A DNA stretch of 22,074 bases from a virus, in the IMG/VR virus record IMGVR_UViG_3300044637_000472, positions 1 to 22,074 of that record. The stretch is one strand, 5' to 3'. Below, piece after piece: positions 7,015 to 19,758 of this stretch. The notes beneath the pieces were generated by a model. The model searched no databases, was not told the DNA's origin, and worked only from the letters and a program-made list of their open reading frames with translations. Positions within the stretch are counted from its first letter, which is position 1; each line of letters opens with the position of its first letter. The position numbers and the translations under genes were made by a program.

Positions 7015-7036
7015 TGTCAGTGCCCCGTGTTAGGCT
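7015..7036 (+). promoter_or_regulatory. TGTCAG-family promoter, copy 1
   Basis: TGTCAG (7015-7020), N10, TAGGCT (7031-7036). The -10 is weaker than in other copies; TATAGT at 7037-7042 is an alternative. It drives the gene at 7086. Confidence 0.65.
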
Positions 7037-7085
7037 TATAGTATAAAGAAAGTAAGAAAGTCTTACTAAAGAAAGGAGTCAGATA

Positions 7086-7256
7086 ATGACTCAACTAACA
7101 GAAACTCTGTATAGCACAATCGTGCACGATTTCCACAATGGTGGAGTAAAGTCCTCATATGGACTAAATGCCTACACACGCAAGGCTCTATTGCGTGATT
7201 TACTAAGTAGCAAGGCTTGCTACTGTATCAACTGTATAGATAAGGAGTCTAAATAA
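7086..7256 (+). CDS. Hypothetical 56-aa protein with Cys cluster
   Basis: ATG 7086 has AAAGGAG 9-10 nt upstream. It begins MTQLTETLYSTIV and ends with a cysteine cluster ACYCINCID (C-x-C-x2-C). It is the first gene of a five-gene string whose members are joined by TAATG junctions or 0-nt gaps. No family is recognised; the cysteines suggest zinc binding. Confidence 0.68.
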   Translation: MTQLTETLYSTIVHDFHNGGVKSSYGLNAYTRKALLRDLLSSKACYCINCIDKESK

Positions 7257-7408
7257 TGACTAATAGAATTTGGGAAAGTCGTAACGACTATCAGACTAAT
7301 AGCGACTATGTCGCTTGCTCTAGCGGTTGCGGTAGAGTAACCGCTTGGACTCTATGCGTAATGTGTGGCGGTAACTACGCTACACACGCCCTAGTAAATG
7401 TGGGCTAA
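7256..7408 (+). CDS. Small zinc-ribbon protein (50 aa)
   Basis: It overlaps the previous stop by one base (TAATG). It contains CSSGCGR and, 15 residues on, CVMCGG, a C-x3-C / C-x2-C pair typical of zinc ribbons. It is rich in Tyr, Asn and Thr. Probably a small DNA- or protein-binding factor; no specific function is visible. Confidence 0.7.
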   Translation: MTNRIWESRNDYQTNSDYVACSSGCGRVTAWTLCVMCGGNYATHALVNVG

Positions 7409-7425
7409 CTCACATACACACTAAC

Positions 7426-7434
7426 GGCGTGTCG
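7426..7434. repeat. GGCGTGTCG repeat
   Basis: One of several copies of GGCGTGTCG in the spacers between 7.4 and 10.9 kb (also 8137, 8186, 8229, 9548 and, inverted, 10841). It lies just before a TGTCAG-type promoter. Confidence 0.5.
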
Positions 7435-7442
7435 CTTGATAA

Positions 7443-7464
7443 TGTCAGACCGATACGCTACAAT
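7443..7464 (+). promoter_or_regulatory. TGTCAG-family promoter, copy 2
   Basis: TGTCAG (7443-7448), N10, TACAAT (7459-7464), followed by TAACGAAAG before the gene at 7501. Confidence 0.8.
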
Positions 7465-7500
7465 TTCACACATAACCTACTAACGAAAGAAGAACAGATA

Positions 7501-7695
7501 ATGATGACTAAATGGGATACTATCCAAGCAGATGTAAGCGATGCTTATGTTTATCTTGATGAAGAAGAAGCGTATAACAATGCGCTAAATAATGAAGATG
7601 AAGAAGATTTTTTCGGATTTTCTAAGGCTATTGAGTTAGACCATCTTACAGATGAAGAATTAGATAATGTCGCTACTATGTTAGGAATAAAATAA
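7501..7695 (+). CDS. Hypothetical acidic 64-aa protein
   Basis: I set the start at ATG 7501 because the frame's upstream GTG (7429) lies ahead of the promoter, whereas GAAAGAAG is 8 nt before 7501. It is strongly acidic (runs of Asp/Glu, EEEAYNNALNNEDEEDF) and lacks Cys and Pro. The acidity could mimic nucleic acid, as in some phage inhibitors, but that is speculation. The next gene begins directly after its stop. Confidence 0.7.
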   Translation: MMTKWDTIQADVSDAYVYLDEEEAYNNALNNEDEEDFFGFSKAIELDHLTDEELDNVATMLGIK

Positions 7696-7848
7696 ATGAC
7701 TATCACTTACTCACTATGGCAAGGCTCGCAACTACTAAGCGTAGATAACAAGGCTAATAGCGCAGATGAATTGCTAAATGTAATGACCGAACTAAATAAA
7801 CTAGGTAAAGGATTTACCTACAATGTAAGAGGAGTAGAGGTAAAATAA
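7696..7848 (+). CDS. Hypothetical 50-aa protein
   Basis: ATG 7696 follows the preceding stop with no gap. It begins MTITYSLWQGSQLL and ends GFTYNVRGVEVK. The pattern (beta strand, helix with LLNVMTELNKLG, beta strands) suggests a small alpha/beta domain. The next gene starts in its stop codon (TAATG), with AGAGG upstream. No family is recognised. Confidence 0.65.
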   Translation: MTITYSLWQGSQLLSVDNKANSADELLNVMTELNKLGKGFTYNVRGVEVK

Positions 7849-8003
7849 TGATACCTAACGGATTAGAGTTATACATAACAAGCGACTACGGATTAGAGTT
7901 AGATAGTTTTCTAGGCGCTATCTATTTACCTTGGCACACTATTGCTATTATCACCGCCCTAGTAATCGGCTATAAGATTTATAAGAGAAAGAAGAATAAG
8001 TAA
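7848..8003 (+). CDS. Small single-pass membrane protein (51 aa)
   Basis: It has one hydrophobic segment (about residues 22-44, FLGAIYLPWHTIAIITALVI) followed by a very basic tail (YKIYKRKKNK), which predicts an N-out/C-in topology. Such proteins can be phage membrane effectors or superinfection-exclusion factors; nothing specific is visible. It is coupled to both neighbours by TAATG junctions. Confidence 0.68.
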   Translation: MIPNGLELYITSDYGLELDSFLGAIYLPWHTIAIITALVIGYKIYKRKKNK

Positions 8004-8131
8004 TGACTACTAACCGCATACTAACTACGCTAGTGCAATTAGGTATTGGGATCCCCGCCCTATATATGGCTCGCCTAATGTGGGCAGACCTAAAAGAAGA
8101 TGTGAGGGAAGTCATAAAAGATTTTCGCTAA
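8003..8131 (+). CDS. Hypothetical 42-aa protein with hydrophobic N-terminal half
   Basis: It starts in the previous stop (TAATG). Residues 6-25 (ILTTLVQLGIGIPALYMARL) form a probable membrane segment, followed by a charged helix (DLKEDVREVIKDFR). Together with the preceding gene it forms a pair of small membrane proteins at the end of the operon. Confidence 0.62.
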   Translation: MTTNRILTTLVQLGIGIPALYMARLMWADLKEDVREVIKDFR

Positions 8132-8194
8132 ATAACGGCGTGTCGGCTTGACAAAATCAAGCTGGCCCGCAAAGGCACGGGGTCGGGCGTGTCG

Positions 8195-8226
8195 TTACGG
8201 ATTTGTTATAAAAAACCCTGAATTCT
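8195..8226 (+). repeat. TTACGR-N15-CCCTG repeat, copy 1
   Basis: TTACGG, 15 nt, CCCTGAATTCT. An AT-rich centre (TATAAAAAA) is shared with other copies. Confidence 0.65.
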
Positions 8227-8263
8227 GCGGCGTGTCGATTTGACAGACAAATCGGACATTTTG

Positions 8264-8302
8264 TGTGATGCTTATCACATAACTTGTGTGATGCTTATCA
8301 CA
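8264..8302. promoter_or_regulatory. Two tandem CRP/GlxR-like operators
   Basis: TGTGATGCTTATCACA at 8264-8279 and again at 8287-8302, exactly 23 bp apart, both perfect TGTGA-N6-TCACA. They precede promoter copy 3. Confidence 0.7.
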
Positions 8303-8349
8303 AAGCCCACGCTCCAAATAGTGAGACAAACCCTTGCCAAATTGGAAAA

Positions 8350-8371
8350 TGTCAGTCCGTTCGTGTATAAT
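8350..8371 (+). promoter_or_regulatory. TGTCAG-family promoter, copy 3
   Basis: TGTCAG (8350-8355), N10, TATAAT (8366-8371). Confidence 0.85.
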
Positions 8372-8406
8372 TCCATACATAACAACAAACGAAAGAAGGT
8401 CTGCCA

Positions 8407-8613
8407 ATGGCTACCAAACTATACACAATCGAAAGCCTACTTGTAGGAAAAAACTATCGCTCAAACTCTCGCCACTTTTCAGGCGAAATCGTTTCTGCTG
8501 AACCTCGCCCTGAAATTTACTACGGCGAAAAAACCGAAGCGTATCTAATCGAAATTCGCACGGGCGGTCTGCGAAATAAATTCGCAACAATCGCAGTAAA
8601 GGTTGGTGAATAA
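8407..8613 (+). CDS. Hypothetical 68-aa beta-rich protein
   Basis: ATG 8407 lies after CGAAAGAAGG (spacing about 6). It begins MATKLYTIESLLVG. Alternating strands (FSGEIVSAEPRPEIYYG, EAYLIEIRTGG, KFATIAVKVGE) suggest a small SH3- or OB-like barrel. It is the first gene of an operon of seven small genes extending to 9514. No family is recognised. Confidence 0.7.
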   Translation: MATKLYTIESLLVGKNYRSNSRHFSGEIVSAEPRPEIYYGEKTEAYLIEIRTGGLRNKFATIAVKVGE

Positions 8614-8615
8614 TA

Positions 8616-8741
8616 ATGGGACACATCGAAATTTTTCGCATAAATGAAAATGGTGCTGGCTGGGTAGATTTATCCGAAGCCACTCCAGATGAGTTATTTC
8701 AAATCGAAATCGGATTACTAAACGAAGGAGCGTTCGAATGA
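8616..8741 (+). CDS. Hypothetical 41-aa protein
   Basis: ATG 8616 lies 2 nt after the previous stop, with GGTTGGTGA upstream. It begins MGHIEIFRINENG; it is acidic and ends in a helix. The next start ATG overlaps its TGA stop (ATGA), so translation is coupled. No family is recognised. Confidence 0.6.
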   Translation: MGHIEIFRINENGAGWVDLSEATPDELFQIEIGLLNEGAFE

Positions 8742-8860
8742 ACCTAGACGAATTCAAAAAGCACGTTATCGCACAACGTGAAGCAAGCAAGGCGGAAGCC
8801 TTGTCAGTCCTATCTGCTACAATTACCAAAACAAACGAAAGGGAAAACCTAAATGGCTAA
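8738..8860 (+). CDS. Hypothetical 40-aa protein whose 3' end contains a promoter
   Basis: It starts at the ATGA junction with the gene before. The protein is a single charged helix (MNLDEFKKHVIAQREASKAEA). The last third of the coding sequence doubles as promoter copy 4 and the CGAAAGGG ribosome binding site of the next gene, whose ATG at 8853 lies within the last codons. The C-terminal peptide sequence is therefore constrained by regulatory DNA. Confidence 0.6.
   Translation: MNLDEFKKHVIAQREASKAEALSVLSATITKTNERENLNG
8802..8823 (+). promoter_or_regulatory. TGTCAG-family promoter, copy 4 (inside a gene)
   Basis: TGTCAG (8802-8807), N10, TACAAT (8818-8823), then ACGAAAGGG before the ATG at 8853. 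Confidence 0.75.
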
Positions 8861-9017
8861 AGTAAAAGAATACATAGAAATAATCGCAGCGAATTGCGAT
8901 GAGTGCGGTGGTGCTGGTTTCTTATTTTGGGGAAATGAAAATAACTATGATGTAGAGCCTTGCTCTTGCGTAGATGAAATCTCTGATGAACTAACACTAG
9001 ATTGGGTAAATAACTAA
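8853..9017 (+). CDS. Zinc-binding mini-protein, DnaJ-knuckle-like (54 aa)
   Basis: CDECGGAGF (C-x2-C-x-G-x-G, the zinc-knuckle form used in DnaJ) is followed 15 residues later by CSC, giving four Cys ligands. The rest is acidic. It has its own promoter embedded in the upstream gene. The next gene starts in its stop codon (TAATG). Confidence 0.7.
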   Translation: MAKVKEYIEIIAANCDECGGAGFLFWGNENNYDVEPCSCVDEISDELTLDWVNN

Positions 9018-9220
9018 TGTATAAACTAACTTGCGCTTATGATAGCAACGCTCCCCACTGGTCTGCCGAATACGAAAACGAATTTGGTGCGTGGGAAAAC
9101 TTTTTCCGCTTTACCGATTGGGGTTCTGCTAATGAATACTCAACTGTAAATTTATTTACACCAACTGGCAAATGCTACACTAAATTATTTTATCGTTCAG
9201 GAGAGGTCGTAGTAAAATGA
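9017..9220 (+). CDS. Hypothetical 67-aa protein
   Basis: Coupled to the previous gene by TAATG. It is aromatic-rich (HWSAEYENEFGAWENFFRFTDWG), with beta strands at both ends (YKLTCAYD and KLFYRSGEVVVK). It overlaps the next gene by 4 nt (ATGATGA). No family is recognised. Confidence 0.68.
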   Translation: MYKLTCAYDSNAPHWSAEYENEFGAWENFFRFTDWGSANEYSTVNLFTPTGKCYTKLFYRSGEVVVK

Positions 9221-9408
9221 TGACTAGAAAAGATTACATCGCAACCGCAGAAATTCTAAAGTATGCGAGCAATAAAACTCACCCCGCTTTATTTTCTAAA
9301 ATCGTAAATGATTTTGCGGAAATGTTTGCGAAAGATAATGAGCGATTTGATGTAAAAAGATTTCACGAAGCGAGTGGGTATAATGTTCCTAACTTCAGTT
9401 CAAGATAA
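9217..9408 (+). CDS. Hypothetical 63-aa helical phage protein
   Basis: Helical protein ending FDVKRFHEASGYN. The layout (YIATAEIL..., DFAEMFAKDNERFD...RF) resembles a common actinophage early-gene family in which the protein closes with F-D-x-x-R-F-x-x-A-x-G; this is recall, not a search. ATG 9217 overlaps the preceding TGA. Confidence 0.7.
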   Translation: MMTRKDYIATAEILKYASNKTHPALFSKIVNDFAEMFAKDNERFDVKRFHEASGYNVPNFSSR

Positions 9409-9514
9409 AGTAAAACGCATTCAGGAATTGCGTCGCAGTAATGCGGCGCAACCTGTTCGCAATAAAAAAAAATACACACGCAAGATCAAACATAAAAATA
9501 AATTAAATTCTTAA
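9383..9514 (+). CDS. Very basic 43-aa protein
   Basis: ATG 9383 lies inside the last 26 nt of the previous gene. The C-terminal half is almost entirely Lys, Arg and Asn (NKKKYTRKIKHKNK), typical of nucleic-acid binding. There is no clear ribosome binding site, so it may rely on coupling. It is the last gene before a regulatory spacer. Confidence 0.55.
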   Translation: MFLTSVQDKVKRIQELRRSNAAQPVRNKKKYTRKIKHKNKLNS

Positions 9515-9530
9515 TTGTCGACAAATGCCC

Positions 9531-9554
9531 GCAGAGCTGCGGAGTCGGGCGTGT
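9531..9554 (+). repeat. GC-rich spacer hairpin
   Basis: CCGCAG-AG-CTGCGG, inside GCCCG..CGGGC, directly after the basic protein gene. It resembles the terminator hairpins at 10758 and 13113 but has no T-run. Confidence 0.5.
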
Positions 9555-9556
9555 CG

Positions 9557-9588
9557 TTACGGGTGTGATATAAAACACCCTAGATTCT
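9557..9588 (+). repeat. TTACGR-N15-CCCTG repeat, copy 2
   Basis: TTACGG, 15 nt, CCCTAGATTCT. Inside it GGGTGT (9561-9566) pairs with ACACCC (9575-9580). Confidence 0.65.
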
Positions 9589-9606
9589 GGGGCGTGTTTC
9601 AAAAAA

Positions 9607-9628
9607 TGTCAGTGCCCTATGGTATTAT
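9607..9628 (+). promoter_or_regulatory. TGTCAG-family promoter, copy 5
   Basis: TGTCAG (9607-9612), N10, TATTAT (9623-9628), then CGAAAGG before the ATG at 9658. Confidence 0.8.
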
Positions 9629-9657
9629 TCTCTTAAATCGAACGAAAGGTCCAACTA

Positions 9658-9867
9658 ATGGAACAAATTACCGTTGCTTGCTTAAACTCTGAAATCTGTG
9701 GCTCAACTATGACTTTTGATAATGAGTCTGATTATGAAGTCTTTGGCGATGACTATATGTGTGCCGAATGTTATGATTCCGAAGAAATGGAATTCTATGA
9801 ACTAACTGGCTGGTCCGATTCCGACGCCCTTGCGTCTGCAGGACACGGAATGGATGAGGATTACTAA
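9658..9867 (+). CDS. Small acidic zinc-binding protein (69 aa)
   Basis: Cysteines at CLNSEIC and CAECYD could form a zinc site. The remainder is strongly acidic (ESDYEVFGDD, DSEEMEFYE). It starts at ATG 9658 after CGAAAGG. It ends just upstream of the Gp88-like gene and is probably co-transcribed with it. Confidence 0.68.
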   Translation: MEQITVACLNSEICGSTMTFDNESDYEVFGDDYMCAECYDSEEMEFYELTGWSDSDALASAGHGMDEDY

Positions 9868-9868
9868 T

Positions 9869-10618
9869 ATGTCAGATCTAACCGCTATAATTACCCCTAT
9901 GAAATTAAAACGTTCAAATGATCGAAAGGTGGCTAACCTTGTCACAAAAAATGGAAAGCAAGCAGCAATTGCCAACACGTTTGGCCTACCCGCAGGAAAA
10001 GATTTTTCATGTCCTGGTGCTACGTCTATCTGCGAGACTGTTTGCTATGCAGGCAAGCTTGAAAAGCTATTCCCAGGAGTAAAAACTAATCTTCTTCATA
10101 ACTGGGAGCTCCTACGTAATGCAGACATGGACGCCATGTTGCTATTGCTTGATGAGATGATTGTTGACTTTGTCAATGATTGTGAAAAGAAAGAGGCACC
10201 TAAGTTATTCCGTATCCACTGGGACGGCGATTTCTTTAACGATACCTACGCATATGCGTGGAAGACTATTATCATGAACCACCCAGATATTCAATTCTGG
10301 GTTTATACTCGTGTTAAGTCTGCAGCGCTTATTCTTAAGAATGTATCTAATCTTTCACTTTATTATTCAACGGATGATGAGAATAAAGAGATTGCACACG
10401 ATTTAAAACTTAATGACGGTATACGACTTGCTTACCTTGGCAAAACTTTTGCGCTTACTGAAAACACAATGAAAGAATTAACTGGTAAGCCTGGTGCTAA
10501 GTGTCCTGAGAATATGAAGAGCATTCCACTTATTAGCAATGCAGGGTCCGCATGTGTTTCATGTGGCCTATGTGTCTACGGTAAAGCGGATATTAGATTT
10601 AGCGCAACTAAGAAATGA
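9869..10618 (+). CDS. Gp88-like phage protein (PF17338-type)
   Basis: 249 aa from ATG 9869 (MSDLTAIITPMKLKR). It shows the layout I associate with the phage 'gene product 88' family: NTFGLPAGKDFSCPGA, ICETVCYAG (Cys cluster), then RIHWDGDFFNDTYAYAW and FWVYTRVKS. The C-terminus has SACVSCGLC, a C-x2-C-x2-C cluster. The clusters hint at a bound metal or Fe-S centre; the function is unknown in the literature I recall. GAGGA lies 9 nt upstream of 9869. A TGTCAG-N10-TATAAT match covers its first codons, so a shorter product from ATG 9899 is possible. Confidence 0.8.
   Translation: MSDLTAIITPMKLKRSNDRKVANLVTKNGKQAAIANTFGLPAGKDFSCPGATSICETVCYAGKLEKLFPGVKTNLLHNWELLRNADMDAMLLLLDEMIVDFVNDCEKKEAPKLFRIHWDGDFFNDTYAYAWKTIIMNHPDIQFWVYTRVKSAALILKNVSNLSLYYSTDDENKEIAHDLKLNDGIRLAYLGKTFALTENTMKELTGKPGAKCPENMKSIPLISNAGSACVSCGLCVYGKADIRFSATKK
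9870..9891 (+). promoter_or_regulatory. TGTCAG-family promoter match, copy 6 (over the Gp88 start)
   Basis: TGTCAG (9870-9875), N10, TATAAT (9886-9891), 7 nt before an in-frame ATG at 9899. It coincides with codons 1-8 of the Gp88-like gene. Confidence 0.5.
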
Positions 10619-10627
10619 GAAAATAAA

Positions 10628-10753
10628 ATGGCCGAACTAAAGTACTTTAATGCATTAATAAATTCCGTGGTTGGTAATGATGAAGAAAGAAAAACCGCTA
10701 AAGAATATTTAGCGGAGGTGGATCCTGAAGTCTGGGGAGATTCTCTAGACTGA
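10628..10753 (+). CDS. Hypothetical 41-aa acidic protein
   Basis: ATG 10628 lies 9 nt after the Gp88-like gene and is probably the last gene of that operon. It begins MAELKYFNALINSVV and ends in an acidic stretch (EVDPEVWGDSLD). A terminator hairpin begins 4 nt after its stop. No family is recognised. Confidence 0.6.
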   Translation: MAELKYFNALINSVVGNDEERKTAKEYLAEVDPEVWGDSLD

Positions 10754-10757
10754 AGGG

Positions 10758-10778
10758 CCCGCAACACTGCGGGGTTTT
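10758..10778 (+). terminator. Rho-independent-like terminator
   Basis: CCCGCA-ACAC-TGCGGG followed by GTTTT, right after the preceding stop codon. Confidence 0.7.
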
Positions 10779-10807
10779 CCACAGGCTTACGGCTTAGTTG
10801 TGGATAA
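10775..10807 (+). repeat. Hairpin with DnaA-box-like arms
   Basis: TTTTCCACA at the left and TGTGGATAA (10799-10807, the complement of TTATCCACA) at the right flank a TTACGG. Equivalent structures lie at 13130 and 20219. Confidence 0.55.
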
Positions 10808-10818
10808 CCCTGAATTTT
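10787..10818 (+). repeat. TTACGR-N15-CCCTG repeat, copy 3
   Basis: TTACGG, 15 nt, CCCTGAATTTT. It runs into the following CRP-like palindrome. Confidence 0.6.
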
Positions 10819-10833
10819 GTGAGAAAACTCACA
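10818..10833. promoter_or_regulatory. CRP/GlxR-like operator
   Basis: TGTGAGAAAACTCACA, perfect TGTGA-N6-TCACA, about 41 bp (centre) upstream of the TGTCGG box of copy 7. Confidence 0.6.
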
Positions 10834-10866
10834 AAAGCTGCGACACGCCGAGGATGTGTTAGCAAA

Positions 10867-10888
10867 TGTCGGTGGCCTAGTGTAAAAT
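10867..10888 (+). promoter_or_regulatory. TGTCAG-family promoter, copy 7
   Basis: TGTCGG (one mismatch, 10867-10872), N10, TAAAAT (10883-10888), then ACGAAAGG before the ATG at 10918. Confidence 0.72.
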
Positions 10889-10917
10889 ACCATTATTCCA
10901 ACAACGAAAGGTAACAA

Positions 10918-11142: not shown

Positions 11143-11417
11143 TGCTATCAACTGCTATTGAAATCTTAGACGCAACCAAATCAAGTATCTTTGACGAGGA
11201 CATAATGGGATTAGCGGGTGAACTGCACACACGCAGAAATGAACTATCAGATGAAATCTATGCTAAGTATTTATTTATGTATTCATCGGCTCTATCTGCT
11301 AAGGTTGCCGATAGCATAACTAAAATCCTATTGACCGAGCAAGAAATGTCAGACCTTGTTGCTACAATAGATGAAATGGACGACCTATCAGAAACTATCT
11401 TAGAGGAGAACGAATAA
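11142..11417 (+). CDS. Hypothetical 91-aa helical protein
   Basis: I set the start at ATG 11142 (MLSTAIEILDATKSS); AAAGGG lies 8 nt upstream and the junction is TAATG. All-helical, acidic. Its 3' part contains promoter copy 8, so it encodes protein and a start site for the next gene at the same time. No family is recognised. Confidence 0.7.
   Translation: MLSTAIEILDATKSSIFDEDIMGLAGELHTRRNELSDEIYAKYLFMYSSALSAKVADSITKILLTEQEMSDLVATIDEMDDLSETILEENE
11347..11368 (+). promoter_or_regulatory. TGTCAG-family promoter, copy 8 (inside a gene)
   Basis: TGTCAG (11347-11352), N10, TACAAT (11363-11368), about 50 nt before the next gene's ATG. Confidence 0.68.
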
Positions 11418-11696: not shown

Positions 11697-11703
11697 TATC
11701 ACA
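11688..11703. promoter_or_regulatory. CRP/GlxR-like operator overlapping a stop codon
   Basis: TGTGATTAGTATCACA, perfect TGTGA-N6-TCACA; the centre is about 45 bp upstream of the TGTCAG box of copy 9. A second dyad TCTCA-AATAA-TGAGA (11713-11727) follows. Confidence 0.65.
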
Positions 11704-11729
11704 CTATAACCTTCTCAAATAATGAGATT

Positions 11730-11762
11730 AGGGTGGAAAATGTCAGACCCACCCTGTATAAT
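11730..11762 (+). promoter_or_regulatory. TGTCAG-family promoter, copy 9, inside a dyad
   Basis: TGTCAG (11741-11746), N10, TATAAT (11757-11762). Arms AGGGTGG (11730-11736) and CCACCCT (11749-11755) surround the TGTCAG box. Confidence 0.82.
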
Positions 11763-12007: not shown

Positions 12008-12039
12008 TAGGGGTAAATGTCAGACCCCTATGTTATACT
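12008..12039 (+). promoter_or_regulatory. TGTCAG-family promoter, copy 10, inside a dyad
   Basis: TGTCAG (12018-12023), N10, TATACT (12034-12039). Perfect arms TAGGGGT (12008-12014) and ACCCCTA (12024-12030) place TGTCAG in the loop. Confidence 0.82.
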
Positions 12040-13227: not shown

Positions 13228-13249
13228 TGTCAGTGCCACCTGTTATAAT
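13228..13249 (+). promoter_or_regulatory. TGTCAG-family promoter, copy 11
   Basis: TGTCAG (13228-13233), N10, TATAAT (13244-13249). TAGACA directly upstream gives a near -35 match. It drives the DUF932 gene. Confidence 0.87.
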
Positions 13250-13276: not shown

Positions 13277-14281
13277 ATGGCTCACAATCTCGAAGTCGAA
13301 AATGGCGAAGTTGCTTTCGCTCTCCGTGGTGCACCTGCTTGGCACAACCTTGCAAATCGCATCTTTACACAAGATGAAGAAGTTACAACCGCAACAATGC
13401 TTGAAGAAGCAAAGTTAGCGAATTGGAATGTTCGTTTATCTCCACTAACTGACCACATTTCAGAATCTTGGAATGATGTGTCTGAAGCCTCATTGGTTAT
13501 TCGTGATAACCCATTCAATGGCGGAACTGATGTTCTTGCTACTGTTGGTAAGCGTTATAAGCCAGTGCAGAATGAAGAATTATTTCAGTTCGCTGATGCA
13601 ATTCACGATGCCAATGCTGATTGCCGTTGGGAATCTGCTGGTTCTCTAAAGAAGGGCAAAGTTGTATTTGGAACTGTAGATATTCCTCGCACAATGGTTC
13701 TTGACCCACAAGGCGCCAATGACCAAACAAAGTTATATCTAATCGTATGGACATCACACGATGGTTCTGTTGCTGTTCAAGCAGCGGTTACACCTGTTCG
13801 TGTTGTATGCCAAAACACTTTGAATCTTGCAATGAAGAATGCAAAGCAATCTTTCAAGATTCGCCACACGCAATCTGTTGAAGGTCGCATTCAAGTTGCT
13901 CGTGAAACTCTTGGGCTTGCTCTTGGATATTTCGATGAATTCGAAGTTCAAGCAAAGGCGCTATACTCTCAAGCAATTACTGATGCTGAATTCTCTAAGT
14001 TGATTCAGACAATTTATCCTAAGCCCGATAAGGATACTAAGGGTGCATTGAAGAAGTGGGAAAACAAAGTTGTTCTCATTGACGATTTGTATCACAATTC
14101 ACCAACTAACGCTACAATCAAGGGAACAAAGTGGGGTGCGTTCAATGCACTAACTGAGCGTCTTGATTATTATCGTTCAGGTCGTGGCAATGGTGAAACA
14201 CTTATGGCGGGTGCATCTGGTTTTGACCCAGTTCTAACCGCAGAAAAAAATAAGTTGTATCGAATGGTTGCAACTTTCTAA
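13277..14281 (+). CDS. DUF932 phage/plasmid-like protein (TIGR03299-type)
   Basis: 334 aa, the normal full length for the family. The N-terminus (MAHNLEVENGEVAFALRGAPAWHNLANRIF) carries the family's 'W-H' element. Further conserved parts are NPFNGGTDVLATVGKRYKPVQNEE (about residue 78) and TPVRVVCQNTLNLAM (about 175). These proteins are frequent on phages and plasmids; their biochemical role is not established as far as I know. It starts at ATG 13277 after CTAACGAAAGG. It is the largest gene of the right arm and has its own promoter, so it is probably highly expressed early. Confidence 0.88.
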   Translation: MAHNLEVENGEVAFALRGAPAWHNLANRIFTQDEEVTTATMLEEAKLANWNVRLSPLTDHISESWNDVSEASLVIRDNPFNGGTDVLATVGKRYKPVQNEELFQFADAIHDANADCRWESAGSLKKGKVVFGTVDIPRTMVLDPQGANDQTKLYLIVWTSHDGSVAVQAAVTPVRVVCQNTLNLAMKNAKQSFKIRHTQSVEGRIQVARETLGLALGYFDEFEVQAKALYSQAITDAEFSKLIQTIYPKPDKDTKGALKKWENKVVLIDDLYHNSPTNATIKGTKWGAFNALTERLDYYRSGRGNGETLMAGASGFDPVLTAEKNKLYRMVATF

Positions 14282-14500: not shown

Positions 14501-14522
14501 TGTCAGTGGCCAGGTGTACAAT
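14501..14522 (+). promoter_or_regulatory. TGTCAG-family promoter, copy 12 (leaderless arrangement)
   Basis: TGTCAG (14501-14506), N10, TACAAT (14517-14522), then exactly 6 nt to the ATG at 14529. Confidence 0.8.
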
Positions 14523-14528
14523 ACTCGC

Positions 14529-15197
14529 ATGACAAAGTATCAGAAATATACATGGGTGTGCACGGGAGACTGTGACGCTTTAATTGAATATACAATTAAA
14601 GATGGATATGGATGGCCAGCGGGTGTGATGGACCTCACATGCCGATGCAATTCCAATTGCACATTATTGTCAGTGGAAGATGCTACAATACCGTATACAG
14701 ATACACCTATAACAGAAACGAAAGGGAATGAAATGGAAACTGCAGAGACAACAATAACAACGGTTCCTGATACATATAACCCAAATCTATTGGTTACCTA
14801 CAAAGTAATCAAGGGATATTCGGATGCAGAATATGCAACTGATAAGGTTACATCAATTGAGTGGGACCTACACAATGCACGTCAAGCACAGAAGCGTGTC
14901 GGAGTATTTGAAGACAAGATAAACACTGTCAAAGATATTATCGGCGAGGCATATGCTGACTCACAAGACCAAGATACACTTCGTGCAATCGCAGAAGCCC
15001 TTGGTATTGAGTTGACTAGAACAGTCGAGTGGACTGCATCTATCGAGGTTAGCGGAACAATTGAAATTGATTTGCTTTCTGATTATGATACTGATTACGA
15101 ACTTGAATCAGAGATTACAGATGCTATCTATGCCGACTCACACAATGGCAATATTGAAATCCTTGACCAAGAAGTTTGTAATGTGAGGGAAGCATAA
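14529..15197 (+). CDS. Hypothetical 222-aa protein with a second internal promoter and start
   Basis: Starts at ATG 14529, placed 6 nt after a -10 box with no ribosome binding site. The first 68 residues form a Cys-rich module (WVCTGDCD ... LTCRCNSNC). Inside the gene a complete TGTCAG-type promoter (14668-14689) and AAAGGG site precede an in-frame ATG at 14733. A 154-aa product lacking the Cys module should therefore also be made. The rest (KVTSIEWDLHNARQAQKRV...; ELTRTVEWTASIEVSGTIEI) is an alpha/beta region without a recognised family. The end overlaps the next ATG (TAATG). Confidence 0.72.
   Translation: MTKYQKYTWVCTGDCDALIEYTIKDGYGWPAGVMDLTCRCNSNCTLLSVEDATIPYTDTPITETKGNEMETAETTITTVPDTYNPNLLVTYKVIKGYSDAEYATDKVTSIEWDLHNARQAQKRVGVFEDKINTVKDIIGEAYADSQDQDTLRAIAEALGIELTRTVEWTASIEVSGTIEIDLLSDYDTDYELESEITDAIYADSHNGNIEILDQEVCNVREA
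14668..14689 (+). promoter_or_regulatory. TGTCAG-family promoter, copy 13 (internal, in frame)
   Basis: TGTCAG (14668-14673), N10, TACAAT (14684-14689), AAAGGG (14721-14726), ATG 14733 in frame with the outer gene. Confidence 0.75.
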
Positions 15198-15409: not shown

Positions 15410-15410
15410 A

Positions 15411-15566
15411 ATGGATTACCAAGATGGTTTTGAAGACGGAGTCAAATTTGCACGAGAGGTTATTGTAACTAATATCCGACTGTGGGCAGAAACATCTGAG
15501 GACGGCGCAGCATATGATGATATCGCTGACCGCCTAGAATTTGGAACCGTTGACTATGACCTCTGA
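15411..15566 (+). CDS. Hypothetical 51-aa protein
   Basis: ATG 15411 follows GGGAGATAAA. It begins MDYQDGFEDGVKFAREVI, an acidic helix-forming start (a Y-x-x-G-F-x-x-G-x-x-x-A pattern common to small phage proteins). It overlaps the following zinc-ribbon gene by 11 nt. Confidence 0.66.
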   Translation: MDYQDGFEDGVKFAREVIVTNIRLWAETSEDGAAYDDIADRLEFGTVDYDL

Positions 15567-15765
15567 GGATCTAACTCGCTGGATTGGCTGTGATCAATGT
15601 GGCACAGCTCAGGCTATGTATCTAATTAAACTAGTAGATGGTGAACTATTCTTTTGTGGCCACCACTACAATAAAAACAAGGATGCCCTTGACAAGGTCT
15701 CATTCGAGATGATAGAATTAAACAAAAAAGAAGAAGCACCACAACTAACAGAAATGGCGGAATAA
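15556..15765 (+). CDS. DUF7455-like zinc-ribbon protein (69 aa)
   Basis: I set the start at ATG 15556 inside the preceding gene's 3' end. It has C-D-Q-C-G near residue 12, then DGELFFCGHHYNKNKDAL. This C-x2-C ... C-x-H-H layout is the actinobacterial DUF7455 pattern as I recall it. The function of that family is not known; a zinc-stabilised adaptor or DNA-binding role is likely. Confidence 0.75.
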   Translation: MTSEDLTRWIGCDQCGTAQAMYLIKLVDGELFFCGHHYNKNKDALDKVSFEMIELNKKEEAPQLTEMAE

Positions 15766-15766
15766 A

Positions 15767-16171
15767 ATGGGAGACAGAGCAAACTTTGGATTCGTCCAAC
15801 CTAACGGAAATACAATCGTCCTATACGGGCACTGGGCTGGACATAATATGCTAGCACAATTGGCAGAGGCAGTATTTAAAGCACGTCCTCGCTGGTCCGA
15901 CCCAGCATATGCAACACGCATTACAATCAGTCAGATGATTAACAATGACTGGAATTCAGAAACTGGATGGGGCCTGCACGTAAACGAAATTGGAGACAAT
16001 GAGCACAAGGTTGCTATTGTAGATTTCGAGCAGCAAACATTTAGTCTTCACGAAGAGGCTCCTCGCAATGACAAAGACAACAAGGTCAATGGGATGAAAA
16101 ATCAAGCAATCTTTACAATGGACCTGAGTAACTTTGTCGAGAAGTATGCGGACGTTGTCATCTCAGTTTAG
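15767..16171 (+). CDS. Hypothetical 134-aa phage protein
   Basis: It begins MGDRANFGFVQPNGNTIVLYGHWAG, a start I recall from uncharacterised actinophage proteins. An alpha/beta pattern follows (MLAQLAEAVFKARPRW, HKVAIVDFEQQTFSLHEE). ATG 15767 lies 1 nt after the upstream stop. The gene is followed by a promoter-like -10 and two terminators, so the operon ends here. Confidence 0.72.
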   Translation: MGDRANFGFVQPNGNTIVLYGHWAGHNMLAQLAEAVFKARPRWSDPAYATRITISQMINNDWNSETGWGLHVNEIGDNEHKVAIVDFEQQTFSLHEEAPRNDKDNKVNGMKNQAIFTMDLSNFVEKYADVVISV

Positions 16172-16178
16172 TTAACTA
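16169..16178. repeat. Palindrome TAGTTAACTA
   Basis: Copy of TAGTYRACTA at the stop codon of the preceding gene, 8 nt upstream of a TATAAT box. Confidence 0.55.
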
Positions 16179-16183
16179 AGATA

Positions 16184-16217
16184 TGATATAATATGGATAG
16201 GTCCTAGCGGACCTTTT
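16184..16217 (+). promoter_or_regulatory. Extended -10 box followed by a hairpin with T-run
   Basis: TG-A-TATAAT (16184-16192), with GGTCC-TAGC-GGACC-TTTT at 16200-16217. The hairpin may terminate the upstream operon or be the 5' stem of a short RNA starting near 16199. Confidence 0.5.
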
Positions 16218-16348
16218 CATTGAAGTATGGTGCGGCTACCAGGGGTTCCCCCAAGTCGTTAAATAAAGCAGCGTTTACTAAATTCCTTTCGTTCCTGCTA
16301 GCAGCCTTACTTATCTTAAGATCCTTCAGCTTAGCTGGGGGATTTTTT
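16199..16348 (+). ncRNA. Possible small RNA between two hairpins
   Basis: No reading frame of note in these 150 nt. It has a 5' hairpin, a C/G-rich short stem (AGGGG-TT-CCCCC, about 16240), and a strong 3' terminator. The extended -10 immediately upstream could be its promoter. Alternatively the region is only a double terminator. Confidence 0.35.
16321..16348 (+). terminator. Strong Rho-independent terminator
   Basis: ATCCTTCAGC (16321-16330), loop TTA, GCTGGGGGAT (16334-16343), ten pairs including two G-T, followed by TTTTTT. Confidence 0.85.
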
Positions 16349-16385
16349 GTTTGGCCCCCAAAAGCGTGAGGGTATCATATGCTAT

Positions 16386-16416
16386 TTACGGATGTCAATA
16401 TAAATCCCTGGAAATT
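16386..16416 (+). repeat. TTACGR repeat, copy 5 (one-base shorter spacer)
   Basis: TTACGG, 14 nt, CCCTGGAAATT. A degenerate dyad GGTGTAAAACACACC follows at about 16437. Confidence 0.5.
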
Positions 16417-16468
16417 TCAGTATTTGAGATCAATGTGGTGTAAAACACACCCATATTGCATAGACAAA

Positions 16469-16490
16469 TGTCAGTGGTCTAATATATAAT
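16469..16490 (+). promoter_or_regulatory. TGTCAG-family promoter, copy 14
   Basis: TGTCAG (16469-16474), N10, TATAAT (16485-16490), then GCGAAAGG before the ATG at 16516. Confidence 0.85.
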
Positions 16491-16515
16491 TGGGTTATTA
16501 GCGAAAGGAAATAAA

Positions 16516-17307
16516 ATGCCAAATTGGTGTTATAACACGTTAACTATTCAAGGACCAAAGTCAGAAGTTGATTATATCAAGGATAGACTGAATAAGCCAT
16601 TTACATTAGCACAAGAGACATATGGTATGGGTGATATTAGTTCTTCAGGTTTCCCCACCAAAATTAAACAGGTTACTTATAGTAATCCTGTCTTTGCATT
16701 CTTCAATATCCATTCATATAAGGATGAAGGTATTACTGATGAGGAATATGCCTGCCAGCCTTCTCGTGGAGACATAGATATCCAAAATGACCCTGATTGG
16801 TTCCGCAAGTCTGTTGAGTTTGCTAAAACTCAGAAGGATTGGTATTCGTGGAATAACTCTAACTGGGGAACTAAATGGGATGTTGCAGTTCGTGATGAAG
16901 AAGAATACTCAAATACAGAGTTACTTGAATACAAGTCAGAAGGTGATGACAACTGGGTTGTATATAAATATGAGACTGCTTGGTCACCTGCTGTAACTAT
17001 CTTAACTAAACTAAGTAATCTTGTTCCTAACTGCCTGCTCACATTAGAGTATGAGGAAGAAACAGGTTGGGGTGGAGAGTATGAGATTGTTCGTGGTGAG
17101 GTTAAAGAGATTCTTTCATATGAGAACCGTTGCTATGCTTGCCAGTCTTTTGATTGTGTTGAGTATTGTGAAGATGACTGTGGTGAATTCTGCTCTGAAT
17201 GTAATGAGGGCTCTTGGCAGGATGAAAAGGCTATGGCAGAATGTCAGACCCATAGTGTATTATTACCTTTGAAAACCTACACACAAGAGGAGGCACTAAA
17301 TGGCTAG
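16516..17307 (+). CDS. Api92/YubB-like ferredoxin-fold protein with Cys-rich C-terminal extension
   Basis: 263 aa. It opens with MPNWCYNTLTIQGPKSEVD, the hallmark start (MPNWC-N-L-x-I-x-G) of the Api92-like ferredoxin-fold family of phages and plasmids. The core includes WDVAVRDEEE and a W-S-P-A segment (YETAWSPAV), also typical. Residues about 212-236 form an extension with eight closely spaced Cys (CYACQSFDCVEYC, CGEFCSEC), probably a two-zinc module. The 3' end contains promoter copy 15, and the gene overlaps the next by 8 nt. Family function is unknown. Confidence 0.82.
   Translation: MPNWCYNTLTIQGPKSEVDYIKDRLNKPFTLAQETYGMGDISSSGFPTKIKQVTYSNPVFAFFNIHSYKDEGITDEEYACQPSRGDIDIQNDPDWFRKSVEFAKTQKDWYSWNNSNWGTKWDVAVRDEEEYSNTELLEYKSEGDDNWVVYKYETAWSPAVTILTKLSNLVPNCLLTLEYEEETGWGGEYEIVRGEVKEILSYENRCYACQSFDCVEYCEDDCGEFCSECNEGSWQDEKAMAECQTHSVLLPLKTYTQEEALNG
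17242..17263 (+). promoter_or_regulatory. TGTCAG-family promoter, copy 15 (inside a gene)
   Basis: TGTCAG (17242-17247), N10, TATTAT (17258-17263), then AGAGGAGG before the ATG at 17300. Confidence 0.76.
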
Positions 17308-17518
17308 TTTCTTAGAAGATGTAAACCAAATGGTAATTGACGCTTGCTATCAAGATATAGCAGAACAATTACTAGAAGATTGGATTAACAGTAATCTTGA
17401 CGAAGGTCAATATTATGCAGATAAACAATTTGCTGAAATGTCAGGGGATAAGTTTGTCCAACAAGAATTCAATAAGTTCTATGAACTTAAAGAGGGAGAT
17501 GAGGATTACTTTGAATAA
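17300..17518 (+). CDS. Hypothetical 72-aa acidic helical protein
   Basis: ATG 17300 after GAGGAGG (about 8 nt). It begins MASFLEDVNQMVIDACYQDI; all-helical, acidic, ending KEGDEDYFE. It is first of a chain of very small genes (17300-18035) each overlapping the next. No family is recognised. Confidence 0.7.
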   Translation: MASFLEDVNQMVIDACYQDIAEQLLEDWINSNLDEGQYYADKQFAEMSGDKFVQQEFNKFYELKEGDEDYFE

Positions 17519-17684
17519 GTATCCATTTGTAATTAGATTAGAAGGTGCTGTAATGGCCAATAATGAAAAGGAAGCACACGAGAAAATTAATCTACACCTA
17601 AACGATTTAGGTGATGTTGATAGCGAAAGATATGATTTAAATTGGCCTGACGTATCTTGGGATATGGAGTATGAACTATGCTAG
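17511..17684 (+). CDS. Hypothetical 57-aa protein, probable TTG start
   Basis: I prefer TTG 17511 (MNKYPFVIRLEGAV) because GAGG at 17501-17504 is 6 nt upstream; ATG 17499 is possible but only 2 nt from its AGAGGG. A beta strand (PFVIRLEGAVMA) then helix (NNEKEAHEKINLHLND) then strands give a small alpha/beta domain, with a W-P-D-V-S-W segment near the end. It overlaps both neighbours. Confidence 0.6.
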   Translation: MNKYPFVIRLEGAVMANNEKEAHEKINLHLNDLGDVDSERYDLNWPDVSWDMEYELC

Positions 17685-17863
17685 GTTATGAAATGGCAGA
17701 TATCGATAGAATGATTAATGCTATACACGATGTTAAGTTATTTTATCTTCGATCCCCGTCCGATTTAATGAACAAGGACCCACTGGTAAAAGACTTAGAA
17801 GACGCTGTCAGCTTTTTACAGGGTCTATGGGCAGAGGGGTATTTTGATGGTTACCAAGACTAG
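17678..17863 (+). CDS. Hypothetical 61-aa helical protein
   Basis: ATG 17678 lies in the last codons of the preceding gene. It begins MLGYEMADIDRMINAIHDV and ends FLQGLWAEGYFDGYQD. Helical throughout. The C-terminal A-E-x-Y-x-D-G-Y resembles the end of other small phage proteins. No family is recognised. Confidence 0.65.
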   Translation: MLGYEMADIDRMINAIHDVKLFYLRSPSDLMNKDPLVKDLEDAVSFLQGLWAEGYFDGYQD

Positions 17864-18035
17864 TAAGTTCTTAGAGTATATGAAACTTCATTTAATTAGT
17901 CTTAACCAGGATATGGAGAAAGACTTGAATGTTGAATCTAAGATAAACATCCAGGGACAAATTATGGCAACCGAGCATTTATTGTCAGTGGCTACTGATA
18001 TAATGAACTCTTCTAACGAAAGGGTATATGGATGA
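17847..18035 (+). CDS. Hypothetical 62-aa helical protein
   Basis: ATG 17847 has GAGGGG 7 nt upstream. It begins MVTKTSKFLEYMKLHLISLN and has heptad-like spacing in the middle. Its 3' end carries promoter copy 16 and the AACGAAAGGG site for the next gene, whose ATG overlaps its TGA. Confidence 0.66.
   Translation: MVTKTSKFLEYMKLHLISLNQDMEKDLNVESKINIQGQIMATEHLLSVATDIMNSSNERVYG
17983..18004 (+). promoter_or_regulatory. TGTCAG-family promoter, copy 16 (inside a gene)
   Basis: TGTCAG (17983-17988), N10, TATAAT (17999-18004), then CTAACGAAAGGG before the ATG at 18032. Confidence 0.8.
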
Positions 18036-18196
18036 AACTATCATCAGATGTAAAGGAAGACCTTCAAGACCAAGCCGACCAAATTATCTATTTTGAATCT
18101 GCTATGTCTAGCGAAAATAAAGCAAGCAAAGCGGTATATCAGCGTCTTGTTGAAATATATAAGGTTGCATATGAGGCAGGAGTTAATAGTAAATGA
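18032..18196 (+). CDS. Hypothetical 54-aa helical protein
   Basis: ATG 18032 follows AACGAAAGGG and overlaps the preceding TGA. It begins MKLSSDVKEDLQDQADQI; two helices, charged. It is first of an operon running to about 19452, with ATGA or nested junctions throughout. No family is recognised. Confidence 0.66.
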   Translation: MKLSSDVKEDLQDQADQIIYFESAMSSENKASKAVYQRLVEIYKVAYEAGVNSK

Positions 18197-18465
18197 ATAT
18201 TGAAGTTGTTGGGCTTCCGCCCCACCTGCAACGAATGGTCAATGCAGGTGTTACTGGATTAGATATAATGCACGGGGAACTTAAAAACCTAATGCTAATC
18301 GCTGAACAAGAACTAACTAATGCCCAACAGATTGAAGAAGAATCAGAAGAGGCAATGGATTCTATGGAGCGAAAGTATTGGGAGGGTGTCCTCGATACAT
18401 ATACAGAACTATATAAACTAACTTATGATTTATCTTTTGTGATTGGAGCACGGGATGAAGCCTGA
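18193..18465 (+). CDS. Hypothetical 90-aa helical protein
   Basis: Starts at ATG 18193 (ATGA junction). It begins MNIEVVGLPPHLQRMV; the remainder is a long acidic helix pair (EQELTNAQQIEEESEEAMDS) compatible with a coiled coil. It overlaps the next gene by 11 nt. No family is recognised. Confidence 0.7.
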   Translation: MNIEVVGLPPHLQRMVNAGVTGLDIMHGELKNLMLIAEQELTNAQQIEEESEEAMDSMERKYWEGVLDTYTELYKLTYDLSFVIGARDEA

Positions 18466-18769
18466 AGACAAAGATAAACTAAACAAATGTTTAGAGATTC
18501 TAGACACAACGGACCTAGGCCTATCAATGGTTTGGCTATGGACGTGGTCCACAATCAACAACATCTTAGATGATGAAACCTATAAGGCAAAGGTTACCCA
18601 AGATCAAATGTGGGACAACCTCTGTGAGGCTGTATCGGCTGGCCACGGGTTCTCTTTAGAATACGGGGCAGAACAGCACCAAGACGACGTCCTTGAATGG
18701 ATGACTAATCGTGACTACATTGTGGATACAATGTGGGAAGAAGAAGAGGATGAAGATGAAGACAACTGA
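18455..18769 (+). CDS. Hypothetical 104-aa acidic protein
   Basis: I set the start at ATG 18455 with GGAG 6 nt upstream. It begins MKPEDKDKLNKCLEILD, has a Trp-rich segment (SMVWLWTWSTINNI, about residue 24) that could be a hydrophobic core helix, and ends in a run of Glu/Asp. The very acidic tail also contains the next gene's ribosome binding site. No family is recognised. Confidence 0.7.
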   Translation: MKPEDKDKLNKCLEILDTTDLGLSMVWLWTWSTINNILDDETYKAKVTQDQMWDNLCEAVSAGHGFSLEYGAEQHQDDVLEWMTNRDYIVDTMWEEEEDEDEDN

Positions 18770-18896
18770 CAAATATGTGGATACCGTGCTAGCGGAAGCG
18801 CAGCGCTTACTATGGGGCGGGTCCGAAACAGAAAACATTGAAGCACATAATCTCATTGCTAAACTAATTAAAGATAGACTAGGCAACGATGAGTAA
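18756..18896 (+). CDS. Hypothetical 46-aa protein
   Basis: ATG 18756 has AGAGGA 5 nt upstream, all inside the previous gene's acidic tail. It begins MKTTDKYVDTVLAEAQRLL and is helical. The following gene starts within its last codons. No family is recognised. Confidence 0.62.
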   Translation: MKTTDKYVDTVLAEAQRLLWGGSETENIEAHNLIAKLIKDRLGNDE

Positions 18897-19041
18897 ATAC
18901 AAAGTTAAGATAGAGATAGTGGGAGGAGTCCCATATATCCTTGAATGCCCTCCAGAAGTTGATGTTGAGATTACACAAGTTAATCATTGGCAGCGCTGGA
19001 AGGAACAGCAAAAGTTGGCCAAAGAGAAAGGGACAAAATGA
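18889..19041 (+). CDS. Hypothetical 50-aa protein
   Basis: ATG 18889 overlaps the preceding stop by 8 nt. Beta-rich start (MSKYKVKIEIVGGVPYILEC), then a basic helix with Trp residues (HWQRWKEQQKLAKEKG). Coupled to the next gene by ATGA. No family is recognised. Confidence 0.62.
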   Translation: MSKYKVKIEIVGGVPYILECPPEVDVEITQVNHWQRWKEQQKLAKEKGTK

Positions 19042-19265
19042 ACGGTTATGAGCCAAGCTTAGAAATCCTGGAAGTTAATTACGGTTGCTCTCCTGGAGGA
19101 GTCGATATGTTTGAGGTGTATGATAAATCTGATATACCTTTAGATGTCCCAATATATGAGACAGAGTCATTGACAAAAGCGGTGAAATATTGTTATAATC
19201 TAGGTAAGGACTTTACTGTTAGAACATTAGCGGAATGGGAGAGTAGAGAGCTTGCCAGCTTATAG
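19038..19265 (+). CDS. Hypothetical 75-aa protein
   Basis: I set the start at ATG 19038 (ATGA junction, AAAGGG 6-8 nt upstream). It begins MNGYEPSLEILEVNYGCSPGG and ends in a helix (VRTLAEWESRELASL). Inside the gene, TTGACA (19170-19175) and TATAAT (19194-19199), 18 nt apart, form a plausible internal promoter for the next gene. Confidence 0.68.
   Translation: MNGYEPSLEILEVNYGCSPGGVDMFEVYDKSDIPLDVPIYETESLTKAVKYCYNLGKDFTVRTLAEWESRELASL
19170..19199 (+). promoter_or_regulatory. Internal sigma70-type promoter
   Basis: TTGACA (19170-19175), 18 nt, TATAAT (19194-19199), inside the gene at 19038. It would transcribe the gene at 19252. Confidence 0.5.
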
Positions 19266-19452
19266 AGTATTTGGAAATAAGTATCAGAACTATTATACAA
19301 TCATTGAGGCTGCCGATCAATTTGAGGCAGTTGATTTAGCCAATGCATTACCTGAGACAGAATGGGATTCCATTCCAACAGATGATGTGATCGAAGCTAC
19401 AGATGTGTATCTAAACGAAGATACATCATTAGATCTACAACTTAATATATAA
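19252..19452 (+). CDS. Hypothetical 66-aa protein, TTG start
   Basis: No ATG exists in the frame; TTG 19252 (MPAYRVFGNKYQNYYTIIEA) has GAGAG just upstream and overlaps the previous gene by 14 nt. The protein follows a strand-helix-strand pattern (YRVFGNKYQNYYTIIEAADQFEAVDLANAL), reminiscent of small proteins that fold like a double-stranded beta/helix repeat. No family is recognised. Confidence 0.65.
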   Translation: MPAYRVFGNKYQNYYTIIEAADQFEAVDLANALPETEWDSIPTDDVIEATDVYLNEDTSLDLQLNI

Positions 19453-19491
19453 GGCGGGACGTAGGGGCTGATCAAAGCTCTTACGGGGGTA

Positions 19492-19520
19492 TTTACAAAT
19501 TCGTCGATATCCGATATAAT
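19492..19520 (+). promoter_or_regulatory. Sigma70-type promoter of the mini-Lsr2 gene
   Basis: TTTACA (19492-19497), 17 nt, TATAAT (19515-19520). It does not belong to the TGTCAG family. A GAAAGGGG ribosome binding site follows. Confidence 0.75.
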
Positions 19521-19552
19521 AAATAAAACATCTCTTGAAAGGGGATAAACAA

Positions 19553-19699
19553 ATGGCAACAAAGCGTGAATATCTAAAGTCACAAGGAATTACTGTGGGT
19601 AAGCGTGGCCGCTTCTCAGCTGCCGCTGTAAAGGCAATTGCGGATGCTCAGACAAGTGGGATGACATTCGAAGCAGAAAAGCCACAGGCAAAGAAGTAA
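19553..19699 (+). CDS. Mini-Lsr2: stand-alone Lsr2 C-terminal DNA-binding domain (48 aa)
   Basis: The protein reads REYLKSQGITVGKRGRFS followed by a helix (AAAVKAIADAQ). Lsr2 proteins end in a domain of the form (I)REWA-x-x-x-G-x-x-V-x-x-R-G-R-(I/V)-x-x-x-(V/I)-x-x-A-Y, in which R-G-R inserts into the minor groove of AT-rich DNA. All of these features are here, but the N-terminal dimerisation/oligomerisation domain of Lsr2 (about 60 residues) is absent. Lsr2 is specific to actinobacteria, where it silences foreign AT-rich DNA. A domain-only phage form could compete with host Lsr2 on the phage genome or act as a regulator. ATG 19553 follows GAAAGGGG. Confidence 0.8.
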   Translation: MATKREYLKSQGITVGKRGRFSAAAVKAIADAQTSGMTFEAEKPQAKK

Positions 19700-19723
19700 G
19701 CTGTCCAGTAGGTGGACAATCGG

Positions 19724-19758
19724 GGGGCTGGCCAAGTGTCAGCCCCTCGTGATATAAT
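19724..19758 (+). promoter_or_regulatory. TGTCAG-family promoter, copy 17, overlapping a hairpin
   Basis: TGTCAG (19737-19742), N10, TATAAT (19753-19758). GGGGCTG (19724-19730) pairs with CAGCCCC (19740-19746), so the hairpin and the promoter overlap. Confidence 0.8.

Follow-up and report, generated by a model that had tools for sequence, protein, structure and literature searches.

The recA gene of mycobacteria has a promoter, P1, that works independently of LexA and RecA and has the consensus tTGTCRgtg-8nt-TannnT (PMC5656591). Promoters of this type were later named RecA-NDp, and the activator PafBC acts through them (PMC6789036). PafBC is activated by single-stranded DNA, after which the housekeeping RNA polymerase starts from a motif at −26. 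PafBC inserts between the promoter and domain 4 of sigmaA, PafB reads the −26 motif, and PafBC without polymerase does not bind promoter DNA (PMC11804915). Here, we analyse a viral stretch of 22,074 nucleotides (nt; IMG/VR record IMGVR_UViG_3300044637_000472, positions 1 to 22,074), hereafter the window, which carries 17 copies of the element TGTC(A/G)G-N10-TANNNT on one strand. Judging from sequence, we put at roughly 80% the probability that these elements belong to the RecA-independent class of actinobacterial DNA-damage promoters (RecA-NDp, or PafBC type).

Other known systems share parts of this arrangement. In LexA/SOS-controlled prophages, phage genes are likewise wired to the host's sensing of DNA damage. 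The difference is that activation, not repression, would operate here; the one SOS-box-like pattern tried gave no site in the window, and tyrosine integrases were found in none of 16 long related records (serine integrases lay outside this search). Cluster A mycobacteriophages have stoperators: dispersed, asymmetric, one-direction sites that contain TGTCA and have the consensus GGTGGMTGTCAAG. These differ in that they are not known to have a fixed −10 partner, and the window sites are not GGTGGMTGTCAAG and mostly show, by eye, an A before TGTCAG. In the middle promoters of phage T4, a MotA box (TGCTT, centred at −30) replaces the −35 element at 12 ± 1 nt from the −10, under the control of MotA/AsiA (PMC2988021). 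The likeness lies in an upstream box that stands for the −35, an adaptor working through sigma region 4 and a single class of phage genes, whereas the box of the window sites is a different one, TGTCAG, at 10 nt. The T4 adaptor is phage-coded, while here a host protein is the candidate and no phage sigma or WYL adaptor was found (the MotA and AsiA families were not searched for). In the literature on PafBC, RecA-NDp, WYL or LexA/SOS together with phages, as far as it was covered (most subscription journals lie outside that coverage), no such phage promoter array is described.

We searched the window for the pattern and retrieved 17 sites within 7015-19758, all on the plus strand. Sixteen are exact TGTCAG-N10-TANNNT and the remaining one, at 10867, reads TGTCGG. 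The core and spacing of RecA-NDp amount to exactly TGTCRG-N10-TANNNT: all 17 sites have the core, with the G option seen once, and all 17 keep 10 nt to TANNNT. Whole-window shuffles contain the exact pattern 0.41 times on average over both strands (maximum 3 in 100 shuffles). On the plus strand of 7001-20200, the 17 copies of the TGTC[AG]G form compare with a dinucleotide-shuffle mean of 0.066 (maximum 1 in 500 shuffles), and that strand has none in 1-7000 or past 20200. The −10-like hexamer is TATAAT, TACAAT or TATTAT at 14 sites, the weakest being TAGGCT at 7015. If transcription is assumed to start 7 nt past the hexamer, TGTCAG lies at −28 to −23. A −35-like box (at most one mismatch to TTGACA, spacing 17-18) accompanies only three sites (7443, 13228 and 16469). 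Start codons follow 20-49 nt past the hexamer at 15 of the 17 sites, 13 with GAAAG(G) and 2 with GAGG upstream; where there were several candidate starts, we chose one with a ribosome site, or the nearest. At 9870 and 14501 the ATG stands only 7 and 6 nt past the hexamer, respectively, so their messenger RNAs would be leaderless. The plus strand of the window has 16 extended −10 matches, 8 of them without TGTCAG; hence, a −10 alone does not bring TGTCAG with it. These results bear out the original prediction, which had described the 17 copies at these positions, their exact spacing and prevailing hexamers, a ribosome binding site and start codon after almost all, TGTCAG at about −28 to −23 and the lack of a good −35 in most; the shuffling and strand comparison proposed with it also came out in its favour. 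The candidate PafBC-type promoters are given below, with the number of aligned relatives in which the motif is intact.

7015..7036, plus strand: −10 TAGGCT; next start ATG 7086; intact in 65 of 70
7443..7464, plus strand: −35-like TTGATA; start ATG 7501/7504; intact in 33 of 36
8350..8371, plus strand: start ATG 8407; intact in 63 of 63
8802..8823, plus strand: start ATG 8853; intact in 40 of 42
9607..9628, plus strand: start ATG 9658; intact in 63 of 63
9870..9891, plus strand: before the GP88 gene; ATG 9899, leaderless; intact in 32 of 32
10867..10888, plus strand: TGTCGG variant; start ATG 10918; intact in 72 of 76
11347..11368, plus strand: within open reading frame 11109-11417; start ATG 11418; intact in 5 of only 7 aligned
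11741..11762, plus strand: start ATG 11788; intact in 71 of 75
12018..12039, plus strand: start ATG 12073; intact in 52 of 53
13228..13249, plus strand: before the DUF932 gene; −35-like TAGACA; start ATG 13277; intact in 75 of 80
14501..14522, plus strand: ATG 14529, leaderless; intact in 57 of 62
14668..14689, plus strand: within open reading frame 14529-15197; internal ATG 14733 with a GAAAGG site; intact in 71 of 72
16469..16490, plus strand: −35-like TAGACA; start ATG 16516; intact in 69 of 69
17242..17263, plus strand: within open reading frame 16516-17307; start ATG 17300; intact in 44 of 50
17983..18004, plus strand: within open reading frame 17844-18035; start ATG 18032; intact in 59 of 59
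19737..19758, plus strand: start ATG 19779; intact in only 7 of 43

The array is conserved in related phages. No nucleotide match to the window was found in the phage collection, and we identified relatives in IMG/VR with the DUF932 protein of the window as query, keeping the best 80 of 280 stretches (1.34 Mb). These 80 loci hold 1179 copies of TGTC[AG]G-N10-TA...T in the sense of the DUF932 gene and 7 in antisense. With the stricter hexamer (TGTCAG-Nx-TA[TC]AAT), 673 copies have x = 10, and at most 8 occur at any other x from 5 to 17. The loci being related, the sites are not independent events; the relatives' sites occupy 815 distinct 100-base contexts. Alignments spanned the site in 952 of the 1360 locus-site pairs (80 loci by 17 sites; the others were dropped), and the motif is intact in 878 of these, the clear exception being 19737. 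Identity at the remaining 16 sites is 0.84-1.00 over the fixed bases of the motif and 0.58-0.93 over the flanks. At 11347, with 7 aligned loci, the downstream flank is more conserved than the motif, and at 10867 both are about equal. All 16 long related records (105-120 kb) carry the array, with 11-24 sites on one strand and 0-4 on the other. In total, the array strands hold 261 sites and the opposite strands 18, and the backward pattern gives 34. The scan of related phage genomes suggested with the original prediction was thus favourable to it. Among the 815 unique sites, the core is followed by T in 67% and then by G in 54%, and preceded by A in 68% and by T in 28%. The G of the TGn position is present in 81%, the phage −10 boxes seem better than their host counterparts, and 686 sites have fewer than five of six matches to TTGACA.

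Arrays also occur beyond this group. A blind scan of IMG/VR with TGTCAG-N7-TG-N-TATAAT gave at least 120 loci, and so did a control at spacing 11. Among the matches listed, three or more sites share a strand in 65 of 120 loci; in the control, none of 120 loci reaches three sites at either spacing, 10 or 11. Two or more proteins are common to the phage record G014 and 70 of the 120 listed loci, so many of them belong to the same phage group. Some loci share 0-1 protein with G014, yet their records hold many sites. The number of sites per record reaches 25 in G092 (one strand), 12 plus 1 on the other strand in G101, 8 in G089 and 7 plus 1 in G084. Of 22 array records that are distant or divergent, a number of them short fragments, 9 encode WhiB, against 1 of 17 control records. 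We see about even odds that several freshwater actinophage lineages use PafBC as a host-supplied switch at the onset of replication for a whole gene class, which would be a counterpart of T4 middle transcription with the adaptor taken from the host.

Which factor would read TGTCAG? The original prediction had proposed a coordinated, non-standard promoter family served by a dedicated factor or an altered RNA polymerase. Its first part is strongly supported by the fixed spacing, the single strand and the conservation. Its second part is not the best reading: the layout is that of the host's RecA-NDp, and none of the 16 long records encodes a sigma region 2 (phage RNA polymerase subunits were not searched for). 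Promoters of a phage sigma factor were rejected on that count. A phage-coded WYL protein or PafBC was likewise rejected, with no WYL domain in the 16 records and no match in 6 phage records to PafB and PafC profiles that we built. By comparison, a sigma-70 gene is present in two isolated Nanopelagicales phages (PMC10202952), which sets them apart from the 16 long records.

The virus is probably a freshwater one infecting actinobacteria. WhiB, which two reports describe as exclusive to Actinobacteria (PMC10202952, PMC8612146), is encoded by all 16 long records. A scan of named genomes with GP88, a protein of the block, gave 12 relatives. One of them, at 68% identity, lies on the short contig L182, which was binned with the 1.3-Mb genome of an actinobacterium (G017). 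Two other contigs, at 76% and 67%, fell into bins labelled cyanobacterium and Phycisphaerae bacterium; bins are therefore weak evidence of host. Two related phage contigs in such cyanobacterial and Phycisphaerae bins (L173 and L174, one of them of 109,918 bases) are probably misbinned. From genome size, phylum and known freshwater biology, we infer that the host order is Nanopelagicales, and we took from a larger group 61 genomes of the order of G017, itself included. All 61 have WYL domains, and a profile search retrieved 35 PafB-like and 33 PafC-like open reading frames in 35 loci. One such pair matches the PafBC chains of the PDB entry 7p5x (1.7e-45 and 7.5e-25). In four complete stretches pafB and pafC are neighbours, with a gene read as a transfer RNA (tRNA) methyltransferase beside them, and in three of these stretches a tatC-like gene lies beyond.

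In this order the motif lies upstream of recA, on the same strand, in 17 of 30 recA loci, and in 15 of these 17 the SOS-box-like palindrome TCGAACAGRTGTTCGG comes no more than 28 nt after the motif. The phage elements are nearly identical to these sites before recA. Genome-wide, the extended form at spacing 10 occurs in 54 places, 21 of which lie 208-255 nt upstream of a recA profile match. The controls gave 9 for its backward form, 5 at spacing 11 and 13 for the backward form of the latter. Other host copies precede genes for CarD, DUF7455, a VWA protein, NlpC/P60, an HD-domain protein and several proteins without family, and the copies examined revealed no set of repair genes beyond recA. 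In three host genomes a CarD-like gene stands 24 nt behind the motif (L271:1547-2026, L275 and L292; family confirmed for L271). The host DUF7455 genes (L281:1177-1389 and L287:1177-1389) each lie 111 nt behind a copy; phage and host DUF7455 are 34% identical over 47 residues.

Because no phage sigma region 2 was found, the layout is that of RecA-NDp and the motif precedes recA in the host order, the factor would most likely be host PafBC acting on ordinary sigmaA polymerase. The elements resemble RecA-NDp and the mycobacterial recA P1 in the TGTCRG core, its distance to TANNNT, its position at about −26 and the usual lack of a −35. They differ in the phage setting, where each long record carries 11-24 copies on a single strand in front of genes without repair annotation, in that A is commoner than T before TGTC, and in better −10 boxes than those of the host recA sites seen. 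Given the promoter likeness, we class the array among PafBC-type promoters, as a family found in a new setting, and predict that it depends on PafBC. During infection, single-stranded DNA from phage replication or damaged host DNA would activate the host heterodimer PafBC, which would dock on host sigmaA polymerase already at the sites. PafB would recognize TGTCRG around −26 instead of a −35 element, and the block of small plus-strand genes, about 13 kb, would switch on together. A host sensor of single-stranded DNA would serve the phage as activator of one gene class, and such wiring is most likely what the array represents. Genes of the opposite strand would more often rely on ordinary −35/−10 promoters. 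In G014, which has a 127-base end repeat, the strand opposite to the block encodes DNA polymerase, primase, helicase, a UvsX-like recombinase and a terminase match; it has 37 ordinary −35/−10 matches against 15 on the block strand (raw counts; the opposite strand holds most genes). The same record encodes a luciferase-like monooxygenase (L166:8231-9037) and an HslV-family peptidase (L166:110-667). Some basal expression without PafBC is likely, as the −10 boxes are often consensus and TGn is common, and activation might well be graded instead of all-or-none.

The most substantial alternative is that these are strong extended −10 promoters used by unaided sigmaA polymerase at entry, TGTCAG giving at most a PafBC boost. 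Many copies do combine TGn with a consensus −10, and some have −35-like boxes. We consider it unlikely, though worth keeping in view, because TGTCAG and the −10 are conserved as a pair, a fixed distance apart, and half of the 16 extended −10 matches of the window do without it. One may also think of a phage activator, either an uncharacterized protein or a WhiB-like one, that recognizes TGTCAG and diverts the host polymerase, in which case the resemblance to PafBC sites would be convergence. The layout does recall T4 middle promoters with their MotA box in place of the −35, WhiB is present in every long record, and nearly all small block proteins scanned have no family match. However, the MotA box is another sequence at 12 ± 1 from the −10, while the match to the RecA-NDp core and spacing is exact and the motif precedes recA in more than half of the host-order loci (17/30), which makes such convergence improbable. 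A decoy role, in which the array mainly ties up PafBC and blunts the damage response of the host, would account for the many copies per genome (11-24 on one strand). It fits poorly with the reported inability of PafBC to bind promoter DNA without polymerase (PMC11804915) and with a start codon in coherent position after every window copy, and we regard it as very improbable. We give still less credence to TGTCAG being a stoperator-like operator by which a phage repressor silences genes in the dormant state. Dispersed one-directional sites are a stoperator trait, and GP88 relatives are common in mycobacteriophages. Against this, the sequence is unlike that of stoperators, the fixed −10 spacing and the presence before host recA fit a promoter element, tyrosine integrases are missing from the 16 records (a search that did not extend to serine integrases), and the stretch of mycobacteriophage CRB1 has a single match at spacing 10.

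Several observations weigh against the assignment to PafBC-type promoters. In the 80 related loci, the loose hexamer TA...T also gives matches at other spacings (220 at 5, 121 at 15, 89 at 12 and 62 at 16, versus 1179 at 10). A −35-like box with at least five of six matches to TTGACA is found at 129 of the 815 unique sites, against 9 and 17 at control offsets, and the better −10 and the TGn suggest that the promoters may work without PafBC. The block families found are GP88, DUF932, DUF7455, DUF1281_C or none, with no repair gene; DNA-repair cargo, a feature of the known PafBC regulon though not of the promoter element, is thus absent from the block. The host assignment draws on just two things, WhiB and one binned contig (L182). 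The exact motif is missing from 13 of the 30 recA loci, including that of the genome holding this contig (G017, recA in L220). Finally, the array is not present in the stretches of the Streptomyces phages Jay2Jay and Mandalore and of mycobacteriophage CRB1, which encode related proteins and have 0, 1 and 1 matches at spacing 10.

PafBC has been studied so far as a repair regulator, mainly in mycobacteria. If the assignment to PafBC-type promoters is true, phages of abundant freshwater bacteria would be able to exploit a host damage sensor to activate their genes. The array offers a direct test of the timing of phage expression and of PafBC activation in infection. The 815 unique contexts are natural variants of PafBC-type promoters that could sharpen the motif, and the array is possibly a sequence signature linking unknown phages with actinobacterial hosts.

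Few of the block proteins scanned belong to a recognizable family.

9899..10618, plus strand: GP88 family protein (PF17338, phrog_1392), unknown function; family scan from ATG 9869
13277..14281, plus strand: DUF932 protein (PF06067, phrog_1221), unknown function; family scan
15556..15765, plus strand: DUF7455 small protein (PF24254); Pfam scan
16516..17307, plus strand: DUF1281_C-like protein; family scan

The leaderless reading places the GP88 start at 9899, i.e. at residue 11 of the scanned open reading frame, and the conserved part of the protein begins near this start. Ten small block proteins had no match in PHROGs, and ten others gave in Pfam the DUF7455 and a below-cut-off Lsr2-like match, nothing else. 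The latter is a weak match to the Lsr2 DNA-binding domain in a protein of 50 residues (19547-19699). Two nested protein forms (14529-15197 and 14733-15197) each stand behind their own candidate PafBC-type promoter, the long form being leaderless. The window has tRNA genes for Arg, Met and Asn on the minus strand (4340-4567) and for Asp on the plus strand (14323-14397). Ordinary −35/−10 matches without TGTCAG are found inside the block at 12757, 19170 and 19492; hence, the block may not be under one control alone. The palindrome TAGTYRACTA has five copies in the window (5022, 6385, 6838, 16169 and 21212), against one for a permuted control, and just three versus one in G014. It is a possible operator of another phage regulator, and its copy at 6838 overlaps the TTGACTA −35 box of a minus-strand promoter match.

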